Assembly: GCA_037447655.1 (NCBI GenBank)
Contig: JBBHKE010002140.1
Location: 60,001 to 124,000, forward strand
DNA: 64,000 bases
Reading direction: 5' to 3'
Origin: Zygnema cylindricum
Lineage: Eukaryota > Streptophyta > Zygnematophyceae > Zygnematales > Zygnemataceae
In this document: positions 12,189-61,749 of the stretch, piece after piece
Position numbering within the stretch: the first letter of the stretch is position 1
How the letters are laid out: every line of letters starts with the position of its first letter
The notes under the pieces: model-generated
Databases searched by the model: none
What the model was told of the DNA's origin: nothing
What the model saw: the letters and a program-made list of their open reading frames with translations, nothing else
Translations under genes and position numbers: made by a program

Positions 12189-12568
12189 TGTTGTTCTACA
12201 ACCACCGGTGCAGGTGGAGGAGCAGCAGTAGTAGTAGAAGTAGACATGATACACTCTCAGAAAGCTATCAAGAATCCTACCAAACAACTGTTCTTAAGTG
12301 CTCACCAATTCTTATACAAGCATCCAAACCTCACAAAACTCTATCACAATATAGAGTAGTATAAACAGTGATAACTCCCAAAGTTATAGCACAATTGACC
12401 TGACAACACTCAAGATATAATACTCAAAAGTTTCCCAAAAACTGTCTGCAGTTTTACTACTTGGAAGTCTGGATACATCATGTGTTCTGAGTCCTAAGTC
12501 TTATACTAGTGTTGTACCGGCAATACCAGTGTACCTGAGAGGTACGTCAAGCTGCCAAGGTAATATTA

Positions 12569-13004: not shown

Positions 13005-13009
13005 CGCTG
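13005..13009. repeat. Target-site duplication of element C (left copy)
   Basis: CGCTG; the identical right copy is at 19421-19425. The target is the GCAGCGCAGC satellite inside D's LTR. Confidence 0.93.
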
Positions 13010-13211
13010 TGTTGAAATCTATAGATTTCTATAGTATTTTCTAGGTTTAAATATGTTTTAATAAAAGGAAAAAAAGACGGACAGCCTGCCTCCACCTCGC
13101 TCTCTAGCTCCCATACTTGTTGTAGTCACTGAAGGTAAGAGAGAGAGGTTGATCCATGGCTGCCTTTAGTTCAACAGACAGCTATTTTTAGTAGGTTACT
13201 AAAAATATACT

Positions 13212-13294
13212 TGACGGACCAGAGATTTGATCCCGGTACCTACGGTTCGTCAAGTTGACCGGTAGCGGTCAGCTTTATCCTAATAGACTAGGAC
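13212..13294 (-). other. tRNA-like module in the C LTR (antisense)
   Basis: On the minus strand a D-arm/A-box-like segment (TAGTCTATTAGG) is followed ~45 nt later by a T-arm/B-box-like GGGATCAAATCT. Acceptor pairing is poor, so it is not a functional tRNA. The same module recurs at the same LTR position in E, F, G and I. Confidence 0.55.
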
Positions 13295-13893
13295 CAATGC
13301 TAAGTGCTATGGTATGTGATAGATATATATTTAGTTAGGAAGAATTAAATCCATTAAACTAGAACTGTGTACGACGCACATAGATTCAGTTTTATATAGT
13401 ACGTCGTACGACGCTAATTCAAAACGGATACCGCGCATTTTATTTCGACATCGGAACAAATATCGCGCAAGTATTTATTACGGCTAAGATTGCGTTTCGC
13501 ATAAAATCCAACGGCGCACATCATCGCCGAAATCCCGGAGTGGTCACTTTGGCGTTTTGTGACGTGGCATAACCTGGAGCCACGTGGAGAGATGACATTC
13601 GGTCATAGGAATTCCGAGAAACGTACGGACGAGTGAAAAGCGGACACGCGTCCACTTAATAGCCTTGTCGTACATAGGCCGTACAAAAGGTACATCGGCA
13701 GTAGTACTTTTGTGTACGATACAGTAATCTGATTGGTCCGTACTTCAGTAGATAGGAGTTATTAGAGAGAATCAGGACTTAGAAAATTTTGGTAGGTGGT
13801 CACCTCTCCCTTTGAGAGTTTGTACAAATTGGCATTTTTACTGCCTCATAACTTATCGCCTGGTTGGCCTTTTTCAGTGATTCTTTTTTCTAC

Positions 13894-13909
13894 GGACTCA
13901 GGGGAGTCC
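13894..13909 (+). other. Leader hairpin GGACTC-AGGG-GAGTCC
   Basis: A perfect 6-bp stem with a 4-nt loop, in what should be transcribed leader. The stem recurs in F (GACTC-AGGG-GAGTC) and, with another loop, in G near 37029. Confidence 0.6.
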
Positions 13910-14023
13910 AGGCTACACAGGGGTGCAGTCAAATTGTCAGTTTGCCTTCTTGGGCAGTAGTGGTTGTGGCTTGAAGTGGGTTAGTTAAATACTATCTAGA
14001 GGCTTCCTGTATTCTGTAGTCCA

Positions 14024-17000
14024 ATGGAGGACACAGAATTGCAGGTTATGGGCCCACCCTCTAGGGTGCCCACCTTCAATGGATCTGGGTTCATCTATTG
14101 GGAAGCCATGATGATGGGAGCTTTGTGTGAAAAACGATACTGGGGTATCGTCAGTGGACAAGTGAAACGTCCACCTTCGGGAACTCCACCAGGATTTGGG
14201 GGAGTAAGGTTTCCTGCAACAACGGCTGCCTCGGCGGAAGAGGCAGATGATGGGGACAGCAGTGTGTCCGAAAAGGGGAAAGGGAAGGAGACACCCCTCA
14301 CTCCTATTGCCACAGTATCGGGAGCGGCAATCGTGAAGACCGTGGAGAACGATACTCAAATGTGGGAGGATGTAAACATGGCTGCCAAGAACTTCATTCT
14401 GAGGCACCTCACTCAAGGTTTGGCCACCCCTCATCTTCACATTTACAAGGCCGAGGAGTTGTGGGTGAGTTTGGTGGAAATTTATAGAGCTGGAACTATT
14501 CAGGAGCTCCAGTTGGCTGAGCAAAAGCTACTGAGTTACACTTACAAAGGAGGAAAGATGCTAGATTACTGTAATGATCTTTCTTGTTTGTATACGGAAA
14601 TGGAAAGTGCCGGGTGGATAGGTACAGTGAAAATGAAAGTTAACACCCTTATCATGAAATTACCAAATGAGTTCGAAAACTTAGTGTACCGAGTACAGGG
14701 AATGCCTGATAGTTCATGGAAATGGAACACAGTAGTCAGGATGATACTTGTGCAGGAGAACACAATGGAGATTAGGAGAGGAGGAAAGAGCATTCAAGCT
14801 CTAGCAGCAGGAGGGGACCGATGGGGGAAGGACCCGAAGAAACCTTATAGAGGGGAAAGAGATCATTCAGGGGGACAGAGGCCCCCAAAGGGTCTTTGTC
14901 ATTATTGCAAAAAGCCGGGACACTTTATTGCAGATTGTGTCAAGCTATCAGAGCTGAGGCTCCAAGAGAACCGTGGAGGGGGTTCTTCCGGAGGGAAGAA
15001 AAAGGCACTTGTGGTTACAAAAGTGTCAGGAGAAACCGAGGATGAGTCCTCTGAGGAGGATGGGGAGCTTCTTCTTGACGAGAGTTTGGAGGAGAAGGAG
15101 ATTCCTCGGAGGCAGAAGTGTGCCCTTGGAGCCATCCGGGAGGCTCCACAGGAAGGATGGATCATCGACTCAGGTGCATCCATGCATATGTGTCGTGATA
15201 AAGAACTCTTCACTAAGCTAAGAAAGATTCCTACTGTAGAGATAGAGTATGGGGATGGGAGAGTGGTTACTACAGATCTAGTGGGATCAGTAGATCTGAA
15301 AGTCTTAGTGGAGGGTAAGACTTCTATACTTACATTCTCAGATGTACTTTACATTCCTCAGCTGAGTAAAAATCTTGTCTCTACGTCTGTGTTAGATGAC
15401 AAAGAGTTTGATACCTTCACCAGAAAGGGAGTCTTTACAGCTAAGTATGGGGATGAAGTTTACTTCACAGCAGATAAGGGTAGCCAAGGAATGTTTAGGC
15501 TTAACTTGAGTAATGAAAAGAAGAATGCTTACTATGTTGGTGTCCCTAAGATGATGATTTGGCATAAGCGGTTGGGGCATGTACATTTTGATAGGTTAAG
15601 GGAAATGAAAAAGCTTGGGGTAGTAGATGGCATTCAGTTTGGGGATAATGAAATGATGGATGATTGTAGTGGTTGTGCTCAAGGTAAGGCTCACAGACTT
15701 CCCTTTCCCAAAGCCGCCACATATAGAGGTGAGAAAGTGTTAGATTTGGTCCACACAGATATTTGGGGACCTGCAAAAGTACCTTCGGTTGGAGGAAAAA
15801 GATTTATGATGACAATAACTGATGATTGGTCTAGATACTCTAGAGTCTACTTTCTGAAAAATAAGTCTGAAGCATCAACTTACTTCAAAGAATATAAAGC
15901 TTGGAGTGAGAAGTTGCATGAAACCCCCATTAAGAGGATAAGGAGTGATAATGGGGGGGAATATACCTCTAACGAGTTTGAGGAATATTTGAGAGATGAG
16001 GGAGTGCAGCACCAGAAAACTGTACCATATAACCCGGAACAAAATGGGGTAGCTGAGAGGTTGAATCGAACACTAGGAGATAGTGCATGCAGTATGTTGG
16101 CAGACAAGAAAATAGGAAAGAGATTTTGGGCAGAAGCAATGAACTGTGCAAACTATATTAAAAATAGAGTCCTTACCTCAGCTGTAAAGGGAGTGACACC
16201 TTATAAGAGATGGGTTGGAAGGAAACCAGATATCTCACACCTTAAAGTATTTGGTAGCCAAGTTTACAGTCTTGATACGGATAGGAAAAACTGGAAACTA
16301 GATGCTAAGGGAAAACCTGGATACTTTGTGGGATATGATGAGGATGTTAAGGGATATAGAGTCTATGACTTAGCAAAGAAAGATATCATTCTGGTCAAAC
16401 ACTTAGTTGTCATGGATGAAGGGAAGTCATTTGACCCCTTCAAATATACAAAAAGGATAAGGATCAGATTTGAGTCCGAAAATGAGGAGAACTCAGTCGT
16501 TCCCGAAAAAGACATGAGTGAAACTGTGATTACAGACTCAGGGGAGATCGAAGATATAGGAGACTCACCGGAAACCTCACATACTCCTATCGACTTCGAG
16601 GAGATGGAAGAAGCGGGACAAGATACGGTTTTTATGGACAGGGGAGCCGATGAGACAGTGAGAAGAAATCCAAGACTTCCATCCATTCCAGCTTCGGAGT
16701 TTGAGGGAGGAAGGAGGAGCAGCAAAAGGATACAGGAAAAACAAGCTGCCCATAAGGTAACTAAGCTATCTCACCCAGATGAGCCTCAGTCTTACTTAGA
16801 GGCAGTGAATAGTCCAGAGAAAGAAAGATGGATTAGGGCCATAAATGATGAGATGGCTTCTATCATGGAAGCAAATACTTGGGAACTAGCGGATTGCCCT
16901 CCAGACAGAAAACCTATTGGATGTAAATGGGTATTTAAACTAAAACTGAACCCAGATAATACAATTGAGAGGTATAAGGCTCGATTGGTAGCGAAGGGGT

Positions 17001-18373
17001 TCACCCAAAAAGAGGGGATTGACTATGAGGAGACCTTTGCTCCAGTTGTTCGGTTCCCATCAGTAAGGATTCTCCTCAGTCTGGCCGCAGCGGAAGACAT
17101 GGAAATTCACCAGATGGATATTAAGACTGCTTTTCTTAATGGTGAGTTAGAGGAAGAAATTTTTATGAGGCAACCCGAGGGGTTTGTGGAAGAAGGAGAA
17201 GAGAGCAAAGTGTGCAGGCTCATAAAGTCCTTATATGGACTGAAACAGGCTCCCCGACAGTGGAATAAGAAACTAGATGAGTTTCTCACCGATCTGGGAT
17301 ACATCCGGATCAGCTCTGATCATTCTATCTATATGTTTGAAGATGAGAATGGTGTCATTTTTATTGCAATTTATGTGGATGATCTGCTTGTGTTAAGTAA
17401 GTCTTTAGAGAATATCAATAGGCTAAAGAAAGATCTTAGGGGCAGATTTGATATGAAGGATTTAGGGGAGGCAAAATATATTTTGGGGATCGAAATGGAA
17501 AGAGATAGGGGGAAGAAGATTATCAGACTTACTCAGAAAGAAGCAATAGGTAATATGCTTGAGAAATTCCAGATGGAAAATGCTAACAGTTGTACCACTC
17601 CCATGGACTTGAAAAAAGGAAGTGATGGGAGTGTAGAAGGAGGAGTGATGATCTTAGACGATCAGATGAGTCCAGAGGAAAGAGAATTCATGAAGTCTAT
17701 CCCTTATAGACAGGTCGTAGGAAGCTTAATCTATTTTATGAACTGTACCAGGCCGGACATAGCGGCGGCAGTTGGTGTACTCAGTAGGAGTCTTAATGAT
17801 CCTAGGAAGAGGGATTGGGAGGCAGCCAAGAGAGTCATGAGATATCTGGTGGGAACTAGAGAGTTATGGTTGCATTTGGGAGGTGAGCACACTGACATCA
17901 CTACTTGGAGTGATGCCAGTTATGGGGACGCACCTATGAGACGATGCACTTCTGGGTATGTGTTGTATGTTGGGGAAGGTGCTTGCTGTTGGAGCAGTAA
18001 GCAACAAAAGGTGGTTGCTCAGTCTACTATGGAGGCTGAGTATATGGCGTCTTGTTCTGCTGTGAAAGAACTAATGTGGGTGAAGTCATTATTGCAAGAA
18101 CTGGGATATATGAAGGAGGGAGTGCATGAAATCTTTTGCGATAATCAAGCTGCAATCGCAATCGCAGCCAATCCAAAACATCATTTCAAAGCAAAACATA
18201 TGGACATAAGATTAAGCTTCGTAAGAGAAAAAGTTGAAAACAAAATTTTAAATCTTGTGTATAGACCTGATGAAGAAATGGTGGCTGACATGATGACCAA
18301 ACCTGTGCCCTCTCCTAAACTAAGATATTGTCGGGAAAAATGCGGGTTGAAAGAAAAACTAAAATTAGACTAG
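14024..18373 (+). CDS. Intact copia Gag-Pol polyprotein (1449 aa)
   Basis: Self-processing polyprotein that builds the particle, copies element RNA and integrates the cDNA. Gag occupies about residues 1-330, with a zinc knuckle CHYCKKPGHFIADC (about 292-305). Protease has DSGAS with Asp382. The HHCC region spans about 513-550 (WHKRLGHVH ... CSGC). The integrase core has Asp579 (HTDIWGP), Asp642 (RSDNGGEY) and Glu678 (NGVAERLNRTL), spaced D-62-D-35-E. RT runs from about 930 to 1240, with YVDD at 1117-1120. RNase H has Asp1297 (WSDASYGD), the MEAEYMA glutamate and Asp1373 (CDNQAA). The ATG at 14024 is chosen because it is the first in frame, lies in the LTR and is matched in the sister families. 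The first six codons plus two nt are LTR; the next five are PBS. Confidence 0.97.
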   Translation: MEDTELQVMGPPSRVPTFNGSGFIYWEAMMMGALCEKRYWGIVSGQVKRPPSGTPPGFGGVRFPATTAASAEEADDGDSSVSEKGKGKETPLTPIATVSGAAIVKTVENDTQMWEDVNMAAKNFILRHLTQGLATPHLHIYKAEELWVSLVEIYRAGTIQELQLAEQKLLSYTYKGGKMLDYCNDLSCLYTEMESAGWIGTVKMKVNTLIMKLPNEFENLVYRVQGMPDSSWKWNTVVRMILVQENTMEIRRGGKSIQALAAGGDRWGKDPKKPYRGERDHSGGQRPPKGLCHYCKKPGHFIADCVKLSELRLQENRGGGSSGGKKKALVVTKVSGETEDESSEEDGELLLDESLEEKEIPRRQKCALGAIREAPQEGWIIDSGASMHMCRDKELFTKLRKIPTVEIEYGDGRVVTTDLVGSVDLKVLVEGKTSILTFSDVLYIPQLSKNLVSTSVLDDKEFDTFTRKGVFTAKYGDEVYFTADKGSQGMFRLNLSNEKKNAYYVGVPKMMIWHKRLGHVHFDRLREMKKLGVVDGIQFGDNEMMDDCSGCAQGKAHRLPFPKAATYRGEKVLDLVHTDIWGPAKVPSVGGKRFMMTITDDWSRYSRVYFLKNKSEASTYFKEYKAWSEKLHETPIKRIRSDNGGEYTSNEFEEYLRDEGVQHQKTVPYNPEQNGVAERLNRTLGDSACSMLADKKIGKRFWAEAMNCANYIKNRVLTSAVKGVTPYKRWVGRKPDISHLKVFGSQVYSLDTDRKNWKLDAKGKPGYFVGYDEDVKGYRVYDLAKKDIILVKHLVVMDEGKSFDPFKYTKRIRIRFESENEENSVVPEKDMSETVITDSGEIEDIGDSPETSHTPIDFEEMEEAGQDTVFMDRGADETVRRNPRLPSIPASEFEGGRRSSKRIQEKQAAHKVTKLSHPDEPQSYLEAVNSPEKERWIRAINDEMASIMEANTWELADCPPDRKPIGCKWVFKLKLNPDNTIERYKARLVAKGFTQKEGIDYEETFAPVVRFPSVRILLSLAAAEDMEIHQMDIKTAFLNGELEEEIFMRQPEGFVEEGEESKVCRLIKSLYGLKQAPRQWNKKLDEFLTDLGYIRISSDHSIYMFEDENGVIFIAIYVDDLLVLSKSLENINRLKKDLRGRFDMKDLGEAKYILGIEMERDRGKKIIRLTQKEAIGNMLEKFQMENANSCTTPMDLKKGSDGSVEGGVMILDDQMSPEEREFMKSIPYRQVVGSLIYFMNCTRPDIAAAVGVLSRSLNDPRKRDWEAAKRVMRYLVGTRELWLHLGGEHTDITTWSDASYGDAPMRRCTSGYVLYVGEGACCWSSKQQKVVAQSTMEAEYMASCSAVKELMWVKSLLQELGYMKEGVHEIFCDNQAAIAIAANPKHHFKAKHMDIRLSFVREKVENKILNLVYRPDEEMVADMMTKPVPSPKLRYCREKCGLKEKLKLD
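14044..14058 (+). promoter_or_regulatory. Element C: half-tRNA-type primer-binding site
   Basis: GGTTATGGGCCCACC, immediately after the LTR. Its complement, GGUGGGCCCAUAACC, is the anticodon stem-loop of plant initiator tRNA-Met (from memory), not the CCA end. This priming mode is known for Drosophila copia and yeast Ty5. The same bases encode V-M-G-P-P of Gag. Confidence 0.85.
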
Positions 18374-18386: not shown

Positions 18387-19420
18387 TGTTGAAATCTATA
18401 GATTTCTATAGTATTTTCTAGGTTTAAATATGTTTTAATAAAAGGAAAAAAAGACGGACAGCCTGCCTCCACCTCGCTCTCTAGCTCCCATACTTGTTGT
18501 AGTCACTGAAGGTAAGAGAGAGAGGTTGATCCATGGCTGCCTTTAGTTCAACAGACAGCTATTTTTAGTAGGTTACTAAAAATATACTTGACGGACCAGA
18601 GATTTGATCCCGGTACCTACGGTTCGTCAAGTTGACCGGTAGCGGTCAGCTTTATCCTAATAGACTAGGACCAATGCTAAGTGCTATGGTATGTGATAGA
18701 TATATATTTAGTTAGGAAGAATTAAATCCATTAAACTAGAACTGTGTACGACGCACATAGATTCAGTTTTATATAGTACGTCGTACGACGCTAATTCAAA
18801 ACGGATACCGCGCATTTTATTTCGACATCGGAACAAATATCGCGCAAGTATTTATTACGGCTAAGATTGCGTTTCGCATAAAATCCAACGGCGCACATCA
18901 TCGCCGAAATCCCGGAGTGGTCACTTTGGCGTTTTGTGACGTGGCATAACCTGGAGCCACGTGGAGAGATGACATTCGGTCATAGGAATTCCGAGAAACG
19001 TACGGACGAGTGAAAAGCGGACACGCGTCCACTTAATAGCCTTGTCGTACATAGGCCGTACAAAAGGTACATCGGCAGTAGTACTTTTGTGTACGATACA
19101 GTAATCTGATTGGTCCGTACTTCAGTAGATAGGAGTTATTAGAGAGAATCAGGACTTAGAAAATTTTGGTAGGTGGTCACCTCTCCCTTTGAGAGTTTGT
19201 ACAAATTGGCATTTTTACTGCCTCATAACTTATCGCCTGGTTGGCCTTTTTCAGTGATTCTTTTTTCTACGGACTCAGGGGAGTCCAGGCTACACAGGGG
19301 TGCAGTCAAATTGTCAGTTTGCCTTCTTGGGCAGTAGTGGTTGTGGCTTGAAGTGGGTTAGTTAAATACTATCTAGAGGCTTCCTCTATTCTGTAGTCCA
19401 ATGGAGGACACAGAATTGCA
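18387..19420 (+). repeat. Element C: 3' LTR
   Basis: Same length as the 5' LTR (1034 bp) and the same sequence except for one mismatch that I can see. It repeats all the LTR motifs, including the tRNA-like module (18589-18671) and the Gag leader ATG, which here is followed only by flanking DNA. Confidence 0.96.
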
Positions 19421-19425
19421 CGCTG

Positions 19426-22153: not shown

Positions 22154-23071
22154 AGTCTCGTCTTGGAGAGACGAAGAAGTTGAAAATAGTGCATTTCCAC
22201 GAGGCGTAGTCCCCGTGAAGCCTTTGTAAAACTGGCTTTGTTGCCATCCCGGCCGGTATAAACCTGTATCGTTAGATTTTTTAAGCTTAGGACAAAATTT
22301 GTATCCATGACCTCTCTCACTACAATAAAAGCATGCATTGTTGGATTGTCTATTTCCACTTTGATTAAAATGTCTAAACTGATTAAACTGATTCCTTTGC
22401 TGATTAAACTATCCTTTTCTCTCAAAGTCTGAATTAAAAGCCTCTACTTGCTCAACATTGAGAATATTAGATGTAGCTTCCTCCTCTAGTAAAATATTGA
22501 TGGCTAACTGTAAAGTCCAGCTAGCTTTATCTTTCTGTTAGAGCATGTCAGATGCTCCTTTCATACTACGAGGAAGACCCCTCATGAGCAATGCCGCCTG
22601 TTGAAAAGGCGGAAACACCCCACCTGCACAAGCATGTGCATCTACAAAGATACGAAATTTGTTAGAATATTCAGCCATTGTACCGCCAGTGTACTTATAG
22701 TCCCAAATTTTTCCAGCCAATAAAAGCTCTTCTTGGACATTGGCCTTTTCATAATCACTTTTAAGAGATTTCTAGATATCAATTGTTTTTTTCATTTTTA
22801 TCCGAGACATAGCTAAGTCCTCAGATATACAAAATTTTAATATAGAACGAGCTTGCGTATTTTTCTTAGACCATGACGAATCAGATTCATCCAGCGAACC
22901 ATCCAATATATCCAAAAGATTGACATTTTCAAAATGTGTTTCCACCATATCCGCCCAGTAAACATACTTATCCCCGAAAAAGATAGGAATTCTTGATGAC
23001 AAGCCCATAATTTGTTGTTCTACAACCACCGGTGCAGGTGGAGGGGCAGCAGTAGTAGTAGAAGTAGACAT
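22150..23071 (-). pseudogene. Element D: Gag
   Basis: ATG at 23069-23071, inside the 5' LTR. The first 19 codons (MSTSTTTAAPPPAPVVVEQ) are LTR; the frame then crosses the PBS as QIMGLSSRIPIFFGDKYVYW, the conserved copia Gag N-terminus. It is broken by TAG after KKTIDI (22772), another stop at 22538 and later frame loss. The zinc knuckle CFYCSERGHGYKFC survives at about 22292-22333. Confidence 0.85.
22998..23012 (-). promoter_or_regulatory. Element D: degenerate half-tRNA PBS
   Basis: AATTATGGGCTTGTC on the minus strand, next to the LTR. It matches 10 of 15 positions of GGTTATGGGCCCACC. Confidence 0.65.
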
Positions 23072-28337: not shown

Positions 28338-29394
28338 TGTAGAAATTAATGGTCTTTTAAAGTATTTTTTAGGTCTGAATAGAAATAAGAAAGAAGCCGA
28401 GGCAGTCTACCTCTAACTTCTCTCTCTAACTTCTCAAACTTGTCGCAGTTACTGAGAAATTGGAGAGGGAGCTAGAGCCATAGCTACCTAGGCTATCCAG
28501 AGGTTTACGGGAAAATATAATTTTAGTTAGGGGTTTAATTTACTAAAAGATATGTGCCAGCGACAGGATTTGATCCTGGTACCTATCGGTCGGCAGACAG
28601 CCGGTAGCCGGTAGCCTTAGCCGTTAAGTCTAGAGGTAGTGTTACGTATTATGAGGTTTGATAATTATTTAAACATTTATACGTAGAAAAGTTCATTTAA
28701 CTATAACTGATTACGGGAGACATATATCCAGTAAATGTAAAAGTACGGATTCCGGTACGGATACAAAACTAATACCGCGCATTTAATTCTTTAGTGAAAC
28801 GAATACCATGCATGTATTTAATACGGCTACGATTAAATGTGAATTTAATCGGATGGCCAGAATGAACGCCGAAATCGCGGAAGAGGGTTTCCGCGGTTTG
28901 TGGTCATCGCCACATCGGATGACATGTGGCGGAATGACATTGGATCGCGGCATCTCCGAGGATTAAGGGAGCGAATCCGGACATACCACGTGTCGACATT
29001 TAGGCCATGTTGTACAATGGCCGTACATAAAGTACACCGGCAGCTGTACTTTTGTGTACGAAACTGAAATCTGATTGGCTCCGTACATCAGTAGATAGAG
29101 TCTGTGAGAGAGATAGGACTTAGAAAAATTAGAAGATAGGACCCTCTCTCCCAGAGAGCTTCTGTACAAAAGGTCAACTTTGACCCTCCATAACTTACTG
29201 CTCAGAGGAGAAAATTCAGAGATTCTTTTTGCTATCGACTCAGGGGAGTCTTCTCTGACAAGGGTGAAGTTGGTCAGAGTTTTTGTTTGCCAGGGTGGCA
29301 GTTATTTTTGCTGAAACACAAAGGGGTTAAGGTTATCCTTGAGGCTTCTTCGAAGCTGTCCACCCTGAGGTTTTATGGAGGTTTCAGAGTTTTA
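28338..29394 (+). repeat. Element F: 5' LTR
   Basis: Carries the antisense tRNA-like module (28556-28638), a GTAC cluster (about 29005-29090), AGGACTTAG (29115-29123), a GACTC-AGGG-GAGTC hairpin near 29238, and the Gag ATG at 29375. Its last bases are TTTTA where the 3' LTR has TTTCA; this changes the Gln codon CAG spanning the LTR/PBS border into TAG. Confidence 0.93.
28556..28638 (-). other. tRNA-like module in the F LTR (antisense)
   Basis: Minus strand: A-box-like TAGACTTAACGGCTAAGGC, then B-box-like AGGATCAAATCCT, which forms a T-arm-like stem. The 3' LTR copy is at 33961-34044. Confidence 0.6.
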
Positions 29395-31108
29395 GGTTAT
29401 GGGCCCACCCTCTAGGGTACCAATCTTTAATGGAACTGGCTTCATATACTGGGAAAGTATGATGATAGGAGCTCTATGCGAAAAAAGGATTTGGGGGATA
29501 GTGAGTGAACGGTTGGGGCGTCCATCGAGTCTTGGAATTCCTCAAGGGTTTGGAGGAAGCACATTCACCAGAAAAGAGGATCCACCTTCAACGGAGGAAA
29601 CAAAAGAAGGAGAGGTGGTGGACAAAGAAAAGGAGAAGGAGGCGACCACACCAATAACAACTGGTTCGGCATTCATGTCATCTATTCCGAGGAACGAGGA
29701 GAATGATACTGAAACCTGGGACTTCAACAATATGGCGGCAAAGCACTTCATCCTACGCCATCTCACTCAAGGACTTGCATGTCCTCATTTGCACGTAGAA
29801 AGGGCATCCGATCTTTGGATGGCTCTCATAGAGATGTACCGAAGTGGTACGATTCAGCAAAAACAGTTGGCTGATCAAAAAGTTAAGGAGTATGTATACA
29901 AAGGGGGGAAGATGTTGGATTTTAGTAATGAGCTTGCTACACTCTCCATGGAGCTAGAGAGTGCGGGAAAAGATTTTAGTGAAAAAAAAAAGGTTAACTG
30001 TTTACTGATGAAGTTACCCGATGAGTTCGAGAACATAGTCAACCGTGTGCAGGACTTGCCGGACCTAAGGTGGATATGGAACTCAGTGGTAGGGATGATT
30101 CTCGTTCGGCAGAATACGATTGAGATCCCAAGAGGAGGAAAGAGTGGCCAAGCCTTGGCAACTGCGACCGATTGGAGGAACAAGGATTCCCAGAAACCGG
30201 TCGGAAACTATGGGGGGAGGGAGCAGAAAAATCAGACCGACGAGTTCGGACCAAGGGCTCCCAAAGGTTTATGTCATTTTTGTAAGAAACCTGGGCACTA
30301 TATGGCAGAGTGCAATAAGCTAACCGAGCTTCGGTTAAAAGAGGGGCAGACCGGTGGTACCGCGAGAGGAAAGAAAAAGGTCCTTGTGACACTGGTACAT
30401 GAGGCGGAATCCGAGGATGAGGACGATGAGCTCCTTTTGGATGAGGAGATGGAGGCGAAAAACGAGGTCGAAATACCACGAAGGCAGAAATGTGCTTACG
30501 GTGGATTGAAAGGTGAAGCAGGCTGGATTGTAGATTCAAGTGCCTCCATGCACATGTGTAAGGATAGGCACCTGTTCACTAAGATAAGAAATATTCCCAC
30601 CGTAGAGATAGAGTACGGGGATGGAAGTATAGTCACCACTACTCTTGTAGGATCGGTAGATTTGAAAGTGTTAGTAGAAGGAAAGACATCGATAGTAACA
30701 TTCTCCGATGTATTGGTTATTCCGGAGCTGAACAACAACCTCATCTCTACATCCGTATTAGATGATAAAGGTTTTTTTACTAGCACTAGGGAAGGAGTCT
30801 TTACTGCTAGTTTTGAGGAGGATGTCTATTTCATTGCTAAAAAAGGTAGCCATGGGATGTTTAGGCTGGTTTTAAGTTATGAAAAGAAGAAACTTTATTA
30901 TGCTGGTGTTCATAATATTATGATGTGGCATAAGAGGATTGGGCATGTGAATCTATACAAGTTAAGGGTGATGAAAAAGATGGGAGTGGTGGAAAGGATT
31001 AAGTTTAGTGAAAATGATAATATAAGTGATTGTGTGGATGTGCTCAAGGTAAAACACACAGATTACCCTTTCCTAAAACAGTCATCTATAAGGGAGAAAA
31101 ATTTCTAG
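29375..31108 (+). pseudogene. Element F: Gag, protease and pre-integrase
   Basis: LTR-borne ATG at 29375 (MEVSEF), then TAG at the LTR border; the open frame resumes at 29399 (MGPPSRVPIFNGTGFIYW) for 569 codons. Zinc knuckle CHFCKKPGHYMAEC is at about 30274-30315. The protease reads DSSAS instead of DSGAS (about 30532), losing the catalytic Gly. HKRIGHVNLYKL is present. The frame leaves the family sequence at about 31030 (one base missing in the CSGCAQGK region), so the last ~25 codons are spurious. Confidence 0.88.
29395..29409 (+). promoter_or_regulatory. Element F: half-tRNA PBS
   Basis: GGTTATGGGCCCACC, identical to C and I, directly after the LTR and in frame with Gag. Confidence 0.85.
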
Positions 31109-34804: not shown

Positions 34805-35054
34805 CGTTCCCTTTCCCATTTTATGACACACTGCAGTACCCATCATCTGCCAACTTTGCTGAAGTAGTTGTTGCTGCAAGAAACCTTACTCCTCCAAATC
34901 GTAGTGGAGTTCTTGAAGGTGGACGTTTCACTTGTCCATTGACGATACCCCGAAATTGTTTTTCGCACAAAGTCCCCATCATCATGGCTTCCCAATAGAT
35001 GAACCCAGATCCATTGAAGGTGGACACCTTAGAGGGTGGGCCTATAACTTGCAA
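34805..35054 (-). pseudogene. Element E: Gag N-terminus
   Basis: Continues E's gag upstream of F: QVIGPPSKVSTFNGSGFIYWEAMMMGTLCEK, closely matching C's QVMGPPSRVPTFNG. In the adjoining LTR the start ATG has become ATA and the fifth codon is TAA, so translation from the LTR is lost. Confidence 0.85.
35035..35049 (-). promoter_or_regulatory. Element E: half-tRNA PBS
   Basis: AGTTATAGGCCCACC on the minus strand; two mismatches to the C/F/I version. Confidence 0.75.
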
Positions 35055-36052
35055 TTATGTGTCCTTTATTGGACTACAGAATTCAAGAAGCCTTCAAATT
35101 GTTTTTAACTAACCCACTTCAAGCCACAACTGCTACTGCCCAAGTAGGCAAACTGACAGTTTGACTGCACCCTTGTGCAAACTGGACTCCCTTGAGTGCG
35201 TAGCAAAAAGAATTATTAAAAACGACCAATCAACGGATAAGTTATGAGGTGGCAAAAATGGCAAATTATACAAACACTCAAAGAGAGAGGTGAGTGTCTA
35301 TCCAAAAATGCTAAGTCCTAACCCCTCTCACAATCCCTATCTACTGCATTATGAACTAATCAAATAACTGTAAAGTAGAGAAAGGTATTACGGCCAATGT
35401 TATTTCTGTACGGCTTGTGTACGACAAAGCCTTTGAGTGGACGCGTGTCACCCTTCCACTTGTCCGTATATTCCACGGAATTCCTGCGACCAAATGTTAT
35501 CCCTCCAAGTGGCGCCAGGTCATGCCACGTCCATAAACGCCAAAGTGACCACTCGCGATCTCGGCAGTGATATATGCCGTTCGATTAAATCCGACATTGA
35601 ATGTCGTCCGTCAAAACAAATATCTGAATCATTTGTTTCGTGCGAAATGACGTCCGTACTGAAACTTTAACTAGTTTTATGTTCCTTTGTTCACATTTTA
35701 GTTAATCGCTTTCAAGACCATGTACAAGTTTAAATATGTATCAAATCCTATGTATCTTAACAGACTTCTAGGACAGAATTGTTAAAGCTAACGGCTACGC
35801 CGTACTCTACCGGTTGGAGGATTGAGTCCTGTCGAACTCAACCTTTTGTTGAGAGTGACATAAGTCACTATTTAGTCCTGCCTTTTGAACTAAGGCAGTC
35901 ATGGCTCAACCACCCTCTCTATCTTTGAGTGACTACAACAAGTATCGTGGCTAGAGAGAGGAGGTGGAGGCAAGTTGTCTGCCCTTTTTTTTTCTTTTTT
36001 TACTGATTTATATAGACCTAGAAAATACTTTATAAATCGAGTAATTTCAACA
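35050..36052 (-). repeat. Element E: 5' LTR (1003 bp)
   Basis: Minus-sense TGTTGAAATT...TAATTGCA. Undisrupted partner of the split 3' LTR. The tRNA-like module lies on the plus strand at about 35778-35843 (B-box-like GGATTGAGTCC). Confidence 0.92.
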
Positions 36053-43403: not shown

Positions 43404-44350
43404 TTAGGCGAGAGCAAAGAACTCTTTGTCATCAGTTTTTGGAAAACTGATCACATCAGGTGTCGTTTCCTCGGTCTTTTTCTTCTCCAATTCCGTATCC
43501 TCCGCTGAAAATGCAACAATTTTATTCGGAGGTTTTTGGGAAATGGGAGGTCCGCGGTGTCTCCATCCTTTCCGAAAGGTACCTGTTTCAAGAGCTTTTA
43601 TATACAAAGGACAAGCTCTGAAGGAGTGACCATCAGTATAGCAATAAACACATTTCTCAAACTGAGGATTAAACTGATTCCCTTGATATCTATTTTCCCT
43701 CTGAAACTGAGCCGTAAATGCTACAGCTGGTTTTCCAAATCCTAAAACTGTCTGAGTAGCCTCTTCTGCCAAGATAAACTCTATAGCTGTTTGCAAATTC
43801 TAAAGAGGTTTAGACAATTTTTTCATTTCATCTGAGGCTCCTTTAATTCATTAGGAAGCCCCTTTAGGAGAATCATGGCCTGATGATAAGGGGAGAAAGT
43901 CCCCCCAGAACATGCATTTTCTGACAGTAACATTCGAAACCGATTAGTGTATTCCACCATGCTACCACCTGTGTACTTATACTCATAGATTTGACCAGCA
44001 GTTATAATCTCATGCTGGTCACTAGCTTTAACATAAGAAGATTTCAATGCATCCCACAAATCTGATGCCTTTGCAACATTAATATATGTCATATGCAATT
44101 CTTTTGATATCATAAGCTTTACTAAATGCAAAGCCTGGTCATTTTTCTGATCAAAACTGGCATCAGATTCTGCCAATGATCCATTTAACACATCAATAAG
44201 TTTCACTTGCTTGAAGTAAGACTTAACCAAATCTGCCCAATACAGATATTCACGTCCATCAAAGACCGGAATTCGTGAAGGCGGGCCCGTGACCTGTTGT
44301 TCTGAGACAAGTGTTGGTACTGAAGATGAAGAAGATGCAGCAGTAGTCAT
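43404..44350 (-). pseudogene. Element H: Gag
   Basis: ATG at 44348-44350 inside the 5' LTR; 18 codons plus two nt are LTR (MTTAASSSSSVPTLVSEQ), then QVTGPPSRIPVFDGREYLYW across the PBS. It is open to a frameshift in the KEASDEMKK region (about 43845), then re-opens as 43404-43796 with the zinc knuckle CVYCYTDGHSFRAC. A TAA at about 43401 separates it from the protease. Confidence 0.88.
44280..44294 (-). promoter_or_regulatory. Element H: variant half-tRNA PBS
   Basis: GGTCACGGGCCCGCC on the minus strand next to the LTR. It matches GGTTATGGGCCCACC at 12 of 15 positions and is shared in form with L. Confidence 0.7.
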
Positions 44351-47581: not shown

Positions 47582-48466
47582 TGTTGAAAAGAGATAATTA
47601 ATAGTTCACATTTCTATTTTAGTTATACTTGAAAAAGAGAGAGTGAGGATCAAAGGCACGCCATGGCTACCACCATATTACGAAAGTGGCAGATTTTGAA
47701 GTAGGGGATATTTTCCCAAAATATTGCCTACGTCCGGATTTGAATCTGGGTTGTGGTTTACTAGGTAGACGTTAGCCTTATCCACTAAGGCGATACCAAA
47801 ACGATACACGTGACGGATTTCAAGGTATATAAACATTAACGCGACTGCAAATTAACACTAAATTAACGAAGAGGAACAATACATGCACGTACGCGAATCC
47901 GAACTGTGTAAAATATTTTTTGACCGGACGACTAGCATTGTAGCCGCCACACGAAGTGAGATTTTGGCGGCATTCAAAGATTGTGTCACGCGGTGCCACG
48001 TGGCGCCGCATTATTTGATACCAGAGAAGATGGGAGGAGGAACCATGGCTCCCGATTTGAGAGGTGTCACCTTGTAGACCATGCCGTACAATGGACGTAC
48101 AATAGGTACATCGCCCATTATACCTTCTTGTACTATATAGTGTTCCTATTGGACTAGGGTATAGTAGTAGGTAGTCGTGAGTAGGCAGACCAAGACTTAG
48201 TGATATTTAGGTACCTCTCTCTAATAGAGCTTTTAACTATAAAGGTCATCTTTGACGAGCCATAGCTTACAGCTCAAGGGAGCAAATTCAGTGATTCTTT
48301 TGCGTTTGACTCAAGGGTGTCTTGTCCTCAGAGGGGTGAGGGTGGTTAGAATATTTTTGTGCCAAGGGGGCACTTATTCAGTGGGAAAGTGGAAGTCGCA
48401 AACATTATCCTAGAAGCTTTACATAGGCAACTCATCCTGTGGGTCAATGGAGACCACATAATTTCA
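47582..48466 (+). repeat. Element I: 5' LTR
   Basis: TGTTGAAAAG...ATAATTTCA. Contents: antisense tRNA-like module (47727-47798), GCCACGTGGC G-box near 47995, GTAC cluster (about 48085-48135), AAGACTTAG (48192-48200), Gag ATG 48447. The leader has TAA at codon 5; the 3' LTR keeps AAA there. Confidence 0.92.
47727..47798 (-). other. tRNA-like module in the I LTR (best-preserved copy)
   Basis: Minus strand: D-arm-like GCCTTAGTGGATAAGGC (5-bp stem) and, 32 nt later, a T-arm-like segment with B-box GATTCAAATCC. The acceptor ends pair poorly. The 3' LTR copy is at 54047-54119. Confidence 0.65.
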
Positions 48467-49088
48467 GGTTATGGGCCCACCCTCTAGGGTGCCCATATTT
48501 GATGGATCAGACTTTTTATATTGGGAAATGATGATGGAGGGAGAACTATTTGAGAAGCATCTATGGGGCATAGTGTTTGGACAAATTCGATGCCCACCTC
48601 CACCTGGGTTTGGAGGGACACGTTATTCTGGCACCTTTGCCACTACAATAGCCAAAACAGCTGCCACCCTCACCGAGGATGAAGATGAGGAAGAAGAGGA
48701 GATTTTCATGGAAGGAGAAAATGTAGGAGTTTCAACTCAAGTGACACCATTGCCAAAGGCGATATCGGCAGGAGCACCATCAGAAACGGTGACAAGGGTT
48801 CAGACCGACAGATCAGAGTATGAAAAGTGGAACTACAAAGACAAGGTTGATAAGCTCTTAATTCTTAAAAGTTTAGCAAAGGGCATTGCCATTCCTCTTA
48901 TGCATGTCAAATTTTCATCTCAGATTTGGATATCACTAGTTAACAAATATAAGAGTGGATCGTTGCCGCAACAACATTTGGCAGAAAATAAGATTGCAGC
49001 TTATACTTATAAGGGAGGAAGCATGAATAATTATTTCAATGATTTAAAAGCATTGTTTGGAGAGCTAGAGAGTGCTGGTAACTCATAG
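48447..49088 (+). pseudogene. Element I: Gag N-terminal part
   Basis: LTR ATG at 48447 (METT, then TAA); open from 48471 (MGPPSRVPIFDGSDFLYWEMMMEGELFEK) for 205 codons. It has an acidic stretch (TEDEDEEEEEIFME) and the Gag helical core to ELESAGNS, then a TAG. Later gag continues with several stops to about 49440. Confidence 0.85.
48467..48481 (+). promoter_or_regulatory. Element I: half-tRNA PBS
   Basis: GGTTATGGGCCCACC, identical to C and F, immediately after the 5' LTR. Confidence 0.85.
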
Positions 49089-54789: not shown

Positions 54790-55036
54790 ACAATGCTCTC
54801 CCCATCCTCACTCTCCTTCGGTGGGGCTGGATCTGCCCTTTTGGTAAACCTGGTCCCTGCAAACCCTGGAAGAATACCCACATTCGATGGAGTCCTCACT
54901 CGTCCACTCACATCCCTCAAAACCTTTTCTCACATAGAGCTCTTATTATCATACTCTCTCACTATATGAAGCCAGTTCCATTAATGATGGGCACACTAGA
55001 GGGTTGGCCCATAACTTGCAATTGTGAGACCTCCAT
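54790..55036 (-). pseudogene. Element G: Gag N-terminus with LTR-borne start
   Basis: ATG at 55034-55036 lies 20 nt inside the 5' LTR: MEVSQL, then Q across the border and VMG from the PBS. The frame is broken soon after (TAG in the FIYW region). 54795-54920 shows RVRTPSNVGILPGFAGTRFTKRADPAPPKE, matching F's GFGGSTFTRKEDPPS. Confidence 0.82.
55002..55016 (-). promoter_or_regulatory. Element G: half-tRNA PBS
   Basis: AGTTATGGGCCAACC on the minus strand; two mismatches from the C/F/I version. Confidence 0.75.
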
Positions 55037-60633: not shown

Positions 60634-61749
60634 TCAATCTGCTTTTGCTTCAATGGCACCACAAGCATAATAGATCAATCTAGTGGGGATAGGTTGCAGA
60701 TTTGTGACAGAGGCCTTGTTCCAGCACATGTGAGAAGAGCTTTCGCAGTCCATGATCCATCCGTGGTCTTTGTCTCCCTCCATCAGTTTCGCAAGAGCGA
60801 AGAACAGTTTGCCGTCAGTTTTTGGAAAACTGACAACATCCGGCATATTTTCCTTGTAGACCGACTCCGGATGCGGTGTGTCAGCAAAAAATGCCTCAAT
60901 TTTGGAAGGGGGTGATGGTGGTGTAAAAGGTGGCCTTTGTGATGTGTATATCCCTTTTGGCCTCCATCCATTTCTGAACACAGCTGTCTCACAAGCTTTG
61001 AGAAACTTAGGACATTGTTTGTACAGATGTCCTTGACTGTAACAATAGACACACTTGTTGTAATATTGAAAACCTTCTTAACCTTGAGATCTGTTTCCTT
61101 GATACTGAACATTAAAAGCTACAGAAGACTTTTCTAGATTAAGAGCTAAAACTGTTGACTCTTCCTCTACCACTAGTTCTATAGTTGTTGCTAGATTCCA
61201 GACTGACTTATCCAATTTTTTTAAACTTGCCGAGGCTTCTTTATATTCTTCAGGAAGTCCTCGCATAAGAATCATAGCCTGATGGTAAGGGGAGAAGTTC
61301 CCCCCTGAACATACATTCTCTGTTAGTAAAAGTCGAAGTCCATTACAATATTCTGCCATACTACCACTTGTATACCTATAGTCCCAAATGTTTCCAGCTG
61401 TAATAATCTCATGCTGAGCATTAGCTTTTAGGTAGATGGTTTTGAGTGAAGTCCAAATTTCTGACGCCTTTTTCATCTTAATATGTGACATAAGCAAATC
61501 CTCTGAAATCATTAACTTTAAGAGATGCAAAGCCTGCTGATTTTTCTCACCATAGGATGCATCAGTTTCAGCAAGACTGCCATCAACTACATCAAACAGT
61601 TTAACTTGAGTAAAATAAGACTCAACCAAATCAGACCAATAAAGGTATTTCCTTCCATCAAAAACTGGTATCCGTGAGGGCGGGCCCGTAACCTGTTGTT
61701 CTGTGGATACTACACCCACTGAAGATGAAGATGAGGCAAGAGTAGTCAT
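60634..61749 (-). pseudogene. Element L: Gag and protease
   Basis: ATG at 61747-61749, 56 nt inside the 5' LTR (MTTLASSSSSVGVVSTEQ), then QVTGPPSRIPVFDGRKYLYW over the PBS; open to a stop at 61078. Zinc knuckle CVYCYSQGHLYKQC is at about 61012-61053. In 60634-60981 the protease site reads DCESS instead of DSGSS, so the active-site Gly is lost. A frameshift separates it from the integrase. Confidence 0.86.
61679..61693 (-). promoter_or_regulatory. Element L: variant half-tRNA PBS
   Basis: GGTTACGGGCCCGCC on the minus strand. Against plant initiator tRNA-Met this gives one C-A mismatch and one G-U pair. Confidence 0.75.

Follow-up and report, generated by a model that had tools for sequence, protein, structure and literature searches.

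Among the described systems, the closest to the elements analyzed here is Ty1 of Saccharomyces cerevisiae. Its PBS is described as lying within the GAG open reading frame (PMC4974528), and the figures given in PMC5454406 are a 334-bp LTR, an RNA that starts at LTR position 241, a 53-nt 5′ untranslated region, and a PBS at RNA positions 95-104. The Ty1 AUG, as calculated from the figures in PMC5454406, lies 41 nt before the LTR end, a distance of the form 3n+2. Silent mutations in the PBS that preserve the Gag sequence were also made (PMC5454406, PMC4974528). In the hemiviruses copia, Ty5, Osser, and 1731, the PBS is described as placed right after the LTR and complementary to the anticodon arm of initiator tRNA-Met (PMC1181622). 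For green plants, the account of copia lineages in PMC6317226 gives a 1/2 tRNA-Met PBS for Osser, Bryco, and part of Gymco-II, and a complete tRNA-Met PBS for most other plant copia lineages. The original prediction for this DNA stated that no description of such a geometry as a general rule was known. Ty1 answers this point, with its Gag AUG placed in the LTR and its PBS in the GAG reading frame (PMC4974528, PMC5454406); because of this precedent, the general idea is already in print. Within the open-licence literature, in which few subscription papers are included, no title or abstract described half-tRNA copia elements with a Gag start in the LTR, or Gag residues that match tRNA alleles.

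The window, by which we mean the whole stretch of 64,000 nucleotides of Zygnema cylindricum DNA that was analyzed, contains several LTR elements, and their features are collected in Table 1. The two LTRs of element C are 99.9% identical across 1035 aligned nt, and domains in its polyprotein were located at 105-248 (Retrotran_gag_2), 490-555 (gag_pre-integrs), 573-671 (rve), and 951-1194 (RVT_2). With integrase upstream of a copia-type RT in a single polyprotein, C is a Ty1/copia LTR retrotransposon (Pseudoviridae). When the C polyprotein and C Gag were used as queries, protein searches returned distant copia proteins only, with no close relatives elsewhere. The coordinates predicted for C were confirmed: the ATG at 14024 precedes the LTR end (14043) by 20 nt, and the PBS is read as V-M-G-P-P. 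A further ATG within the PBS is the complement of the anticodon CAU, and it is in the Gag frame. In young copies of the C family, the LTR ATG is kept and the LTR-coded part is free of stops in 28/28, with a change of E to G in one of them.

Table 1. Positions of LTR, PBS, and coding features of the elements in the window.
Feature	Position	Strand	Details
C 5′ LTR, TG...CA ends	13010..14043	+	TSD CGCTG at 13005-13009
C ATG-free stretch before the putative LTR start codon	13593..14023	+	closest upstream ATG at 13592, 432 nt away
C LTR-coded Gag N-terminus	14024..14043	+	20 nt, M-E-D-T-E-L-Q, Q completed by PBS base 1
C PBS GGTTATGGGCCCACC	14044..14058	+	complement of tRNA-iMet anticodon arm; in Gag frame, end of Gln, then V-M-G-P-P
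C gag-pol, one frame, 1449 codons, copia domain order	14024..18370	+	begins at LTR ATG
C 3′ LTR	18387..19420	+	TSD CGCTG at 19421-19425
J solo LTR, LTR ATG	12189..12247	-	ATG 59 nt before LTR end 12189; without PBS after it
D LTR ATG, PBS-like AATTATGGGCTTGTC	22998..23071	-	ATG 59 nt before LTR end 23013
F LTR ATG to PBS	29375..29409	+	ATG to LTR end 20 nt; 5′ LTR ends TA, border codon TAG, frame closed
E, ATA replaces ATG, PBS AGTTATAGGCCCACC	35035..35069	-	20 nt; TAA at codon 5
H LTR ATG, PBS GGTCACGGGCCCGCC	44280..44350	-	ATG 56 nt before LTR end 44295; ACG replaces ATG in PBS
I LTR ATG to PBS	48447..48481	+	20 nt; codon 5 is TAA, frame closed
G LTR ATG, PBS AGTTATGGGCCAACC	55002..55036	-	20 nt
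L LTR ATG, PBS GGTTACGGGCCCGCC	61679..61749	-	ATG 56 nt before LTR end 61694

The same geometry had been claimed for F, I, G, and E (20 nt), H and L (56 nt), and D and J (59 nt), and all of these positions were found as given. Paired LTRs with 5-bp TSDs are present in C, F, H, and I (CGCTG, TGTCT, TTAAC, and ACAAT); for L, no clear TSD was found at the coordinates tried. A Gln codon across the border between LTR and PBS had also been proposed, and it occurs in C but not in F, where the LTR end TA gives TAG. The expectation that the ATG of a 3′ LTR runs into flanking DNA was borne out, with resulting ORFs of 23-24 codons in C, 23 in H, 25 in I, and 74 in L. The first two bases of the PBS of D (AATTATGGGCTTG, 22998-23012, minus strand) are changed, and the reading is still ...Q-I-M-G.

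A search of the genome (352.8 Mb in 2689 contigs) gave 5974 matches (3019 + 2955) to the exact 15-base PBS of the C type, compared with 3 + 3 for a reversed control, and 781 matches at ≤1 mismatch to the ACG form of the PBS plus part of the LTR end. From these, 120 copies of lineage 1, the lineage of the window, were sampled in listing order, 70 of the 5974 exact ATG-type matches and 50 of the 781 ACG-type matches (≤1 mismatch). The upstream walk was done in the 3n+2 frame and the Gag frame was called independently from the downstream block. An open LTR ATG was present in 104/120 copies, always at a 3n+2 distance from the LTR end: 20 nt in 56 copies, 53 nt in 4, 56 nt in 38, 59 nt in 5, and 65 nt in 1. 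One further copy was open solely at 125/128 nt and 15 were closed, 14 of them ATG-type. The downstream Gag block was recognized in 114/120 copies, with its frame at 3n+2 in 110 and another frame in 4, and in 13 additional copies the frame was open at 20 nt in 12. Collecting family members had been suggested as a check on phase, and within the lineage of the window it proved to be constant (3n+2), not random.

Closed LTR frames were found in 14/70 ATG-type and 1/50 ACG-type copies (Fisher p 0.004), in samples that were differently drawn and are not alike, because the ACG search pattern demanded part of the LTR end. The 14 ATG-type copies have a stop or lack the ATG, and 7 of them share TAA at codon 5. 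For 13 closed ATG-type copies, the nearest neighbour is 76 to 99.6% identical; among 56 open copies, the median is 93.6%. Most closed copies look old, although L047 shares 99.6% identity with a copy that is open. A GAA-to-TAA change in the fifth LTR codon is seen in L047, L048, L050, L066, L073, L100, L135, and the window elements I and E, and it recurs across C-like and I-like families. A subfamily that multiplies with TAA at codon 5 and a closed frame was considered and rejected: the 7 copies are mostly diverged, L047 is a recent single change, and 28/28 young C copies are without a stop there. One copy, L056, has a half-tRNA PBS and a 3n+2 Gag block (Q-V-M-G-P-P-P-W-L-P) with no in-frame LTR ATG and no near neighbour; its first in-frame ATG is the one in the PBS.

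The stretch upstream of the LTR ATG is poor in other ATGs. Among 48 representatives that are <90% identical (29 C-type, 19 ACG-type), whose effective number is smaller because they share ancestry and are not independent, the 100 nt upstream of the LTR ATG contain 13 ATGs against 88.7 expected from composition, while CAT occurs 61 times against 62.3 expected. The mean distance to the closest upstream ATG is 178 nt, compared with 62 in dinucleotide shuffles, and 0/200 shuffle sets reached the observed value. In the C-type (n=29), the depletion extends over positions -200..-1 (22 ATGs, 111.7 expected) and -300..-200 (10 against 60.6, with CAT low too, at 17 against 36.6), and it is gone at -400..-300 (57 against 49.6). 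In the ACG-type (n=19), it is limited to the first 100 nt (8 against 32.3; beyond that, 40 against 37.3). A depletion of this kind is the trace expected of a scanned leader, and its end hints at the position where the leader would start, predicted at ~300 nt or more upstream of the LTR ATG in C-type families and at roughly 100-150 nt in H-type ones. The longer LTR-coded extensions also evolve as codons do: across the 12 representatives of the 56-nt type (17 codons), pN/pS is 0.35 for the Gag frame, compared with 1.07 and 1.67 for the two other frames. For the 20-nt type (29 representatives, 5 variable LTR codons), pN/pS is 0.98, so protein constraint is not evident there.

The tRNA-iMet genes of the host carry GGTGGGCCCATAACC in the anticodon arm, which is the exact complement of the C PBS, and this PBS pairs in 15/15 bases with the tRNA-iMet genes L009-L012 and L014. 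By this complementarity, C has a PBS of the hemivirus (half-tRNA) type and is presumably primed by this tRNA. At PBS base 4, a synonymous Val position, 95 matches have a base other than T compared with 5974 that have T, which argues that this base is held by the tRNA side. Compared with the tRNA complement, the ACG-type PBSs show between 1 and 5 mismatches, with 2 or 3 of 15 in 43/50. These mismatches fall mainly on the third position of Val (base 4), on base 6, where Met becomes Thr, and on the third position of Pro (base 13); as only bases 4, 10, and 13-15 were unconstrained in the search pattern, the spread of mismatches is partial. Because the PBS serves as coding sequence as well as primer complement, the tRNA keeps its 5′ core fixed, and some of the remainder drifts at the codon level.

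Opposite A35, the ACG-type PBSs of H and L (44280-44294 and 61679-61693, both on the minus strand) mismatch the initiator tRNA, and in H the same is true opposite A37. Mismatching ACG-type copies number at least several hundred (781 at ≤1 mismatch). A separate tRNA for the ACG-type PBS was looked for at 7 places that match the complement of this PBS away from the usual LTR end; ARAGORN calls a tRNA at none of them, 6 read as element borders, and one (L162) is ambiguous. PBS bases 4 and 6 face A37 and A35; as a speculation, a modified A37 could halt copying of the primer past PBS base 3, with the remainder inherited from the RNA.

Other lineages were approached through a search with the Gag profile PF14223, in which 150 of 15356 candidates were scored and the upstream regions of 20 listed loci with long open frames were examined. 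Of these, 17 form a second lineage, which shares the PBS core of the first, and 3 form a third, with a full-tRNA PBS; there may be elements of other layout among the remaining candidates. In lineage 2, 13/17 loci are open from an LTR ATG 18 nt before the LTR end, a phase of 3n, and the PBS core GGT TAT GGG CC is read as G-Y-G-P with the PBS ATG out of frame; the other 4 (L180, L183, L184, L193) are not open from the LTR ATG. In the family of L179, copies of the ATG segment are spaced by 4.63-4.66 kb on contigs C1680, C266, and C2291, and the LTR border is defined by three 3′ LTRs of one family (L197, L199, L200) that diverge directly after ...CAATA. At PBS base 12, a Pro third position, 10 of 16 loci have T, 4 have C, and 2 have G, and the depletion of ATG is weaker than in lineage 1 (23 against ~51 expected in 300 nt, 13 loci). 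At L198, the LTR runs into another PBS, as a tandem copy. A GA/CT-rich simple repeat follows the LTR of L197, L199, and L200 (3/3 non-tandem 3′ ends), as if lineage 2 inserted into microsatellites.

In lineage 3, the ATG precedes the LTR end by 26 nt (3n+2); the frame is open in L177 and L178 and broken further on in L196, and the PBS is of the full-tRNA type, TGGTATC(GG/AA/AG)AGC. The ATG segment of this lineage recurs ~4.73-4.78 kb apart on twelve contigs, and the LTR border is defined by L201-L203, which diverge directly after ...CAACA. Two contigs (G000:C568 and G000:C805) each have three ATG segments ~4.77 kb apart, in tandem LTR-internal-LTR arrays. A Gag start in the LTR is thus common to all three sampled lineages, and its phase is not universal.

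The PBS of lineage 3 varies within the coding frame. After ...H-G-I, the PBS of L177 encodes Lys (AAA), and that of L178 encodes Gly (GGA). Two of the 16/651 differences between these copies lie inside the PBS, as do two of the 8/533 differences between L177 and L196, in a PBS of 12 bases. With three bases of the PBS pattern left open, 25 copies were found, 20 with GGA, 3 with AAA, and 2 with AGA (Gly, Lys, and Arg). The host tRNA-iMet genes end in GGCTCCGAT (L009, L012), GGCTTTGAT (L013), and GGCTCTGAT (L010, L011), and the complements of these ends are exactly GGA, AAA, and AGA, a match in 25/25 of the lineage-3 copies listed, where the changes are A/G at two sites only, 3/4 combinations are present, and the copies are possibly of shared ancestry. 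The contrast of 8/50 with 4/575 in lineage 3 is inflated, because the search limited mismatches elsewhere. The original prediction that the Gag peptide is dictated in part by the tRNA is partly supported, by PBS base 4, kept as T, and by these PBS variants that equal host tRNA alleles; the ACG-type families depart from the tRNA, many of them at synonymous sites.

We consider it highly probable that, in these Ty1/copia elements, Gag begins at the LTR AUG and is read through the LTR end and the PBS, with 3n+2 as an inherited frame. A scanning ribosome would initiate Gag at the AUG close to the LTR 3′ end (U5), and translation would continue unbroken through the LTR end and the PBS, with the PBS not separated from Gag by any untranslated leader. 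In the lineage of the window, the primer would be half of an initiator tRNA-Met (its anticodon arm). The site of the transcription start, the codon actually used for initiation, and the use of this primer are what we infer from the observed geometry, frames, LTR borders, tRNA complementarity, ATG depletion, and codon-like 56-nt extensions. The original prediction of a Gag start inside the LTR is backed, at the level of sequence, by the open frame, the depletion of upstream ATGs, and the codon-like longer N-termini. The phase would be constant within the lineage because an indel in the LTR-coded part keeps the Gag frame only if its length is divisible by three.

A different start codon is conceivable for the 20-nt families, in which the ATG of the PBS is in the Gag frame and has G at -3 and +4: it could be the true Gag start, with the LTR ATG as an optional upstream one. 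The absence of protein constraint on the five LTR codons of the 20-nt type is what such a start would predict, as is the greater frequency of closed LTR frames in ATG-type (14/70) than in ACG-type copies (1/50), in samples that are not alike; the closed copies, however, are mostly diverged. We regard a start in the PBS as unlikely, given that ACG-type families have no ATG in the PBS and still keep the LTR ATG (49/50 open), that the PBS ATG of lineage 2 is out of the Gag frame, and that the LTR ATG is the first ATG in an ATG-poor stretch, so that scanning ribosomes would reach it first. LTR termini and PBSs are constrained by integration and priming, and the near-invariant T at the synonymous base 4 fits a conservation that serves these processes solely, across which the open frame would be incidental. 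It is very improbable that this is the whole explanation, since the lengths of families differ by multiples of three (53, 56, 59, 65), the codon pattern of the 56-nt type appears in frame and not off frame, the depletion of ATG is specific to the sense strand, and an open frame is found again in two more lineages, in other phases or with another PBS.

Finally, 3n+2 could be a mechanistic rule, for example if the PBS had to be read as Q-V-M/T-G-P-P. All ten cases in the window and 105/120 sampled copies of lineage 1 have this phase, and so do lineage 3 and, by the figures in PMC5454406, yeast Ty1 (41 nt), but we think that such a rule can hardly be right. It is contradicted by lineage 2, with its 18 nt and G-Y-G-P in 13/17 loci and with three 3′ LTRs checked. 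As this second lineage reads the same half-tRNA PBS core in 3n, and another lineage reads a full-tRNA PBS, 3n+2 is not a rule of the mechanism, and the original prediction fails where it generalized the phase. The 3n+2 of the window is most readily taken as a single inherited frame.

An extension of this reading concerns the tRNA genes of the host, which might co-write Gag. Since the primer is the template for part of the PBS in each new copy, it is proposed that the Gag codons there follow the tRNA-iMet paralogue that primes, with those codons being rewritten by it and with Gly, Lys, or Arg in lineage 3 according to the allele. We rate this proposal as slightly more probable than not, and templating by tRNA paralogues as such somewhere between that and likely. 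In the C-type copies of lineage 1 and in lineages 2 and 3, the start codon is 18-26 nt upstream of the annealed primer, and an initiating ribosome would abut the primer. By further extension, annealing of the primer could act as a switch that takes the RNA out of translation and into reverse transcription.

Two new points stand out as strongest: the same PBS is read in two frames by two lineages, and a Gag residue matches host tRNA alleles. Here, a single stretch of DNA ends the LTR, complements the tRNA primer, and encodes protein, and thousands of copies of it, read in two frames, are present within one genome. With so many copies of this triple-duty stretch, it becomes possible to measure, for each base, how strong the three constraints are relative to one another. 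The architecture of Ty1 is extended to elements with half-tRNA primers, and variation in tRNA genes may show in the protein of a mobile element. There is also a caution for annotation pipelines that seek Gag only between the PBS and the PPT.

Judged from sequence, the Ty1-like layout with Gag beginning in the LTR is found in C and in 104/120 copies of lineage 1, and also in lineages 2 and 3. As the consulted accounts of Ty1 (Saccharomyces cerevisiae, Pseudoviridae) describe it, the Zygnema elements share with it a Gag AUG in the LTR and a PBS inside the Gag ORF. The PBS of Ty1 pairs with the 3′ end of tRNA-iMet, whereas Zygnema lineages 1 and 2 have a half-tRNA PBS directed at the anticodon arm; unlike in Ty1, two Zygnema lineages differ in the frame in which the PBS is read, and gag and pol of C form one frame. 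The hemiviruses copia, Ty5, Osser, and 1731, as characterized by their PBS in PMC1181622, resemble lineages 1 and 2 in the half-tRNA PBS, a likeness by PBS type alone. The Osser, Bryco, and Gymco-II lineages are a plausible home for Zygnema lineages 1 and 2, an agreement that is likewise by PBS type only in the account of PMC6317226. Lineage 3 resembles the plant copia elements to which the same account assigns a complete tRNA-Met PBS; what sets it apart is that it starts Gag in the LTR and reads through the PBS.
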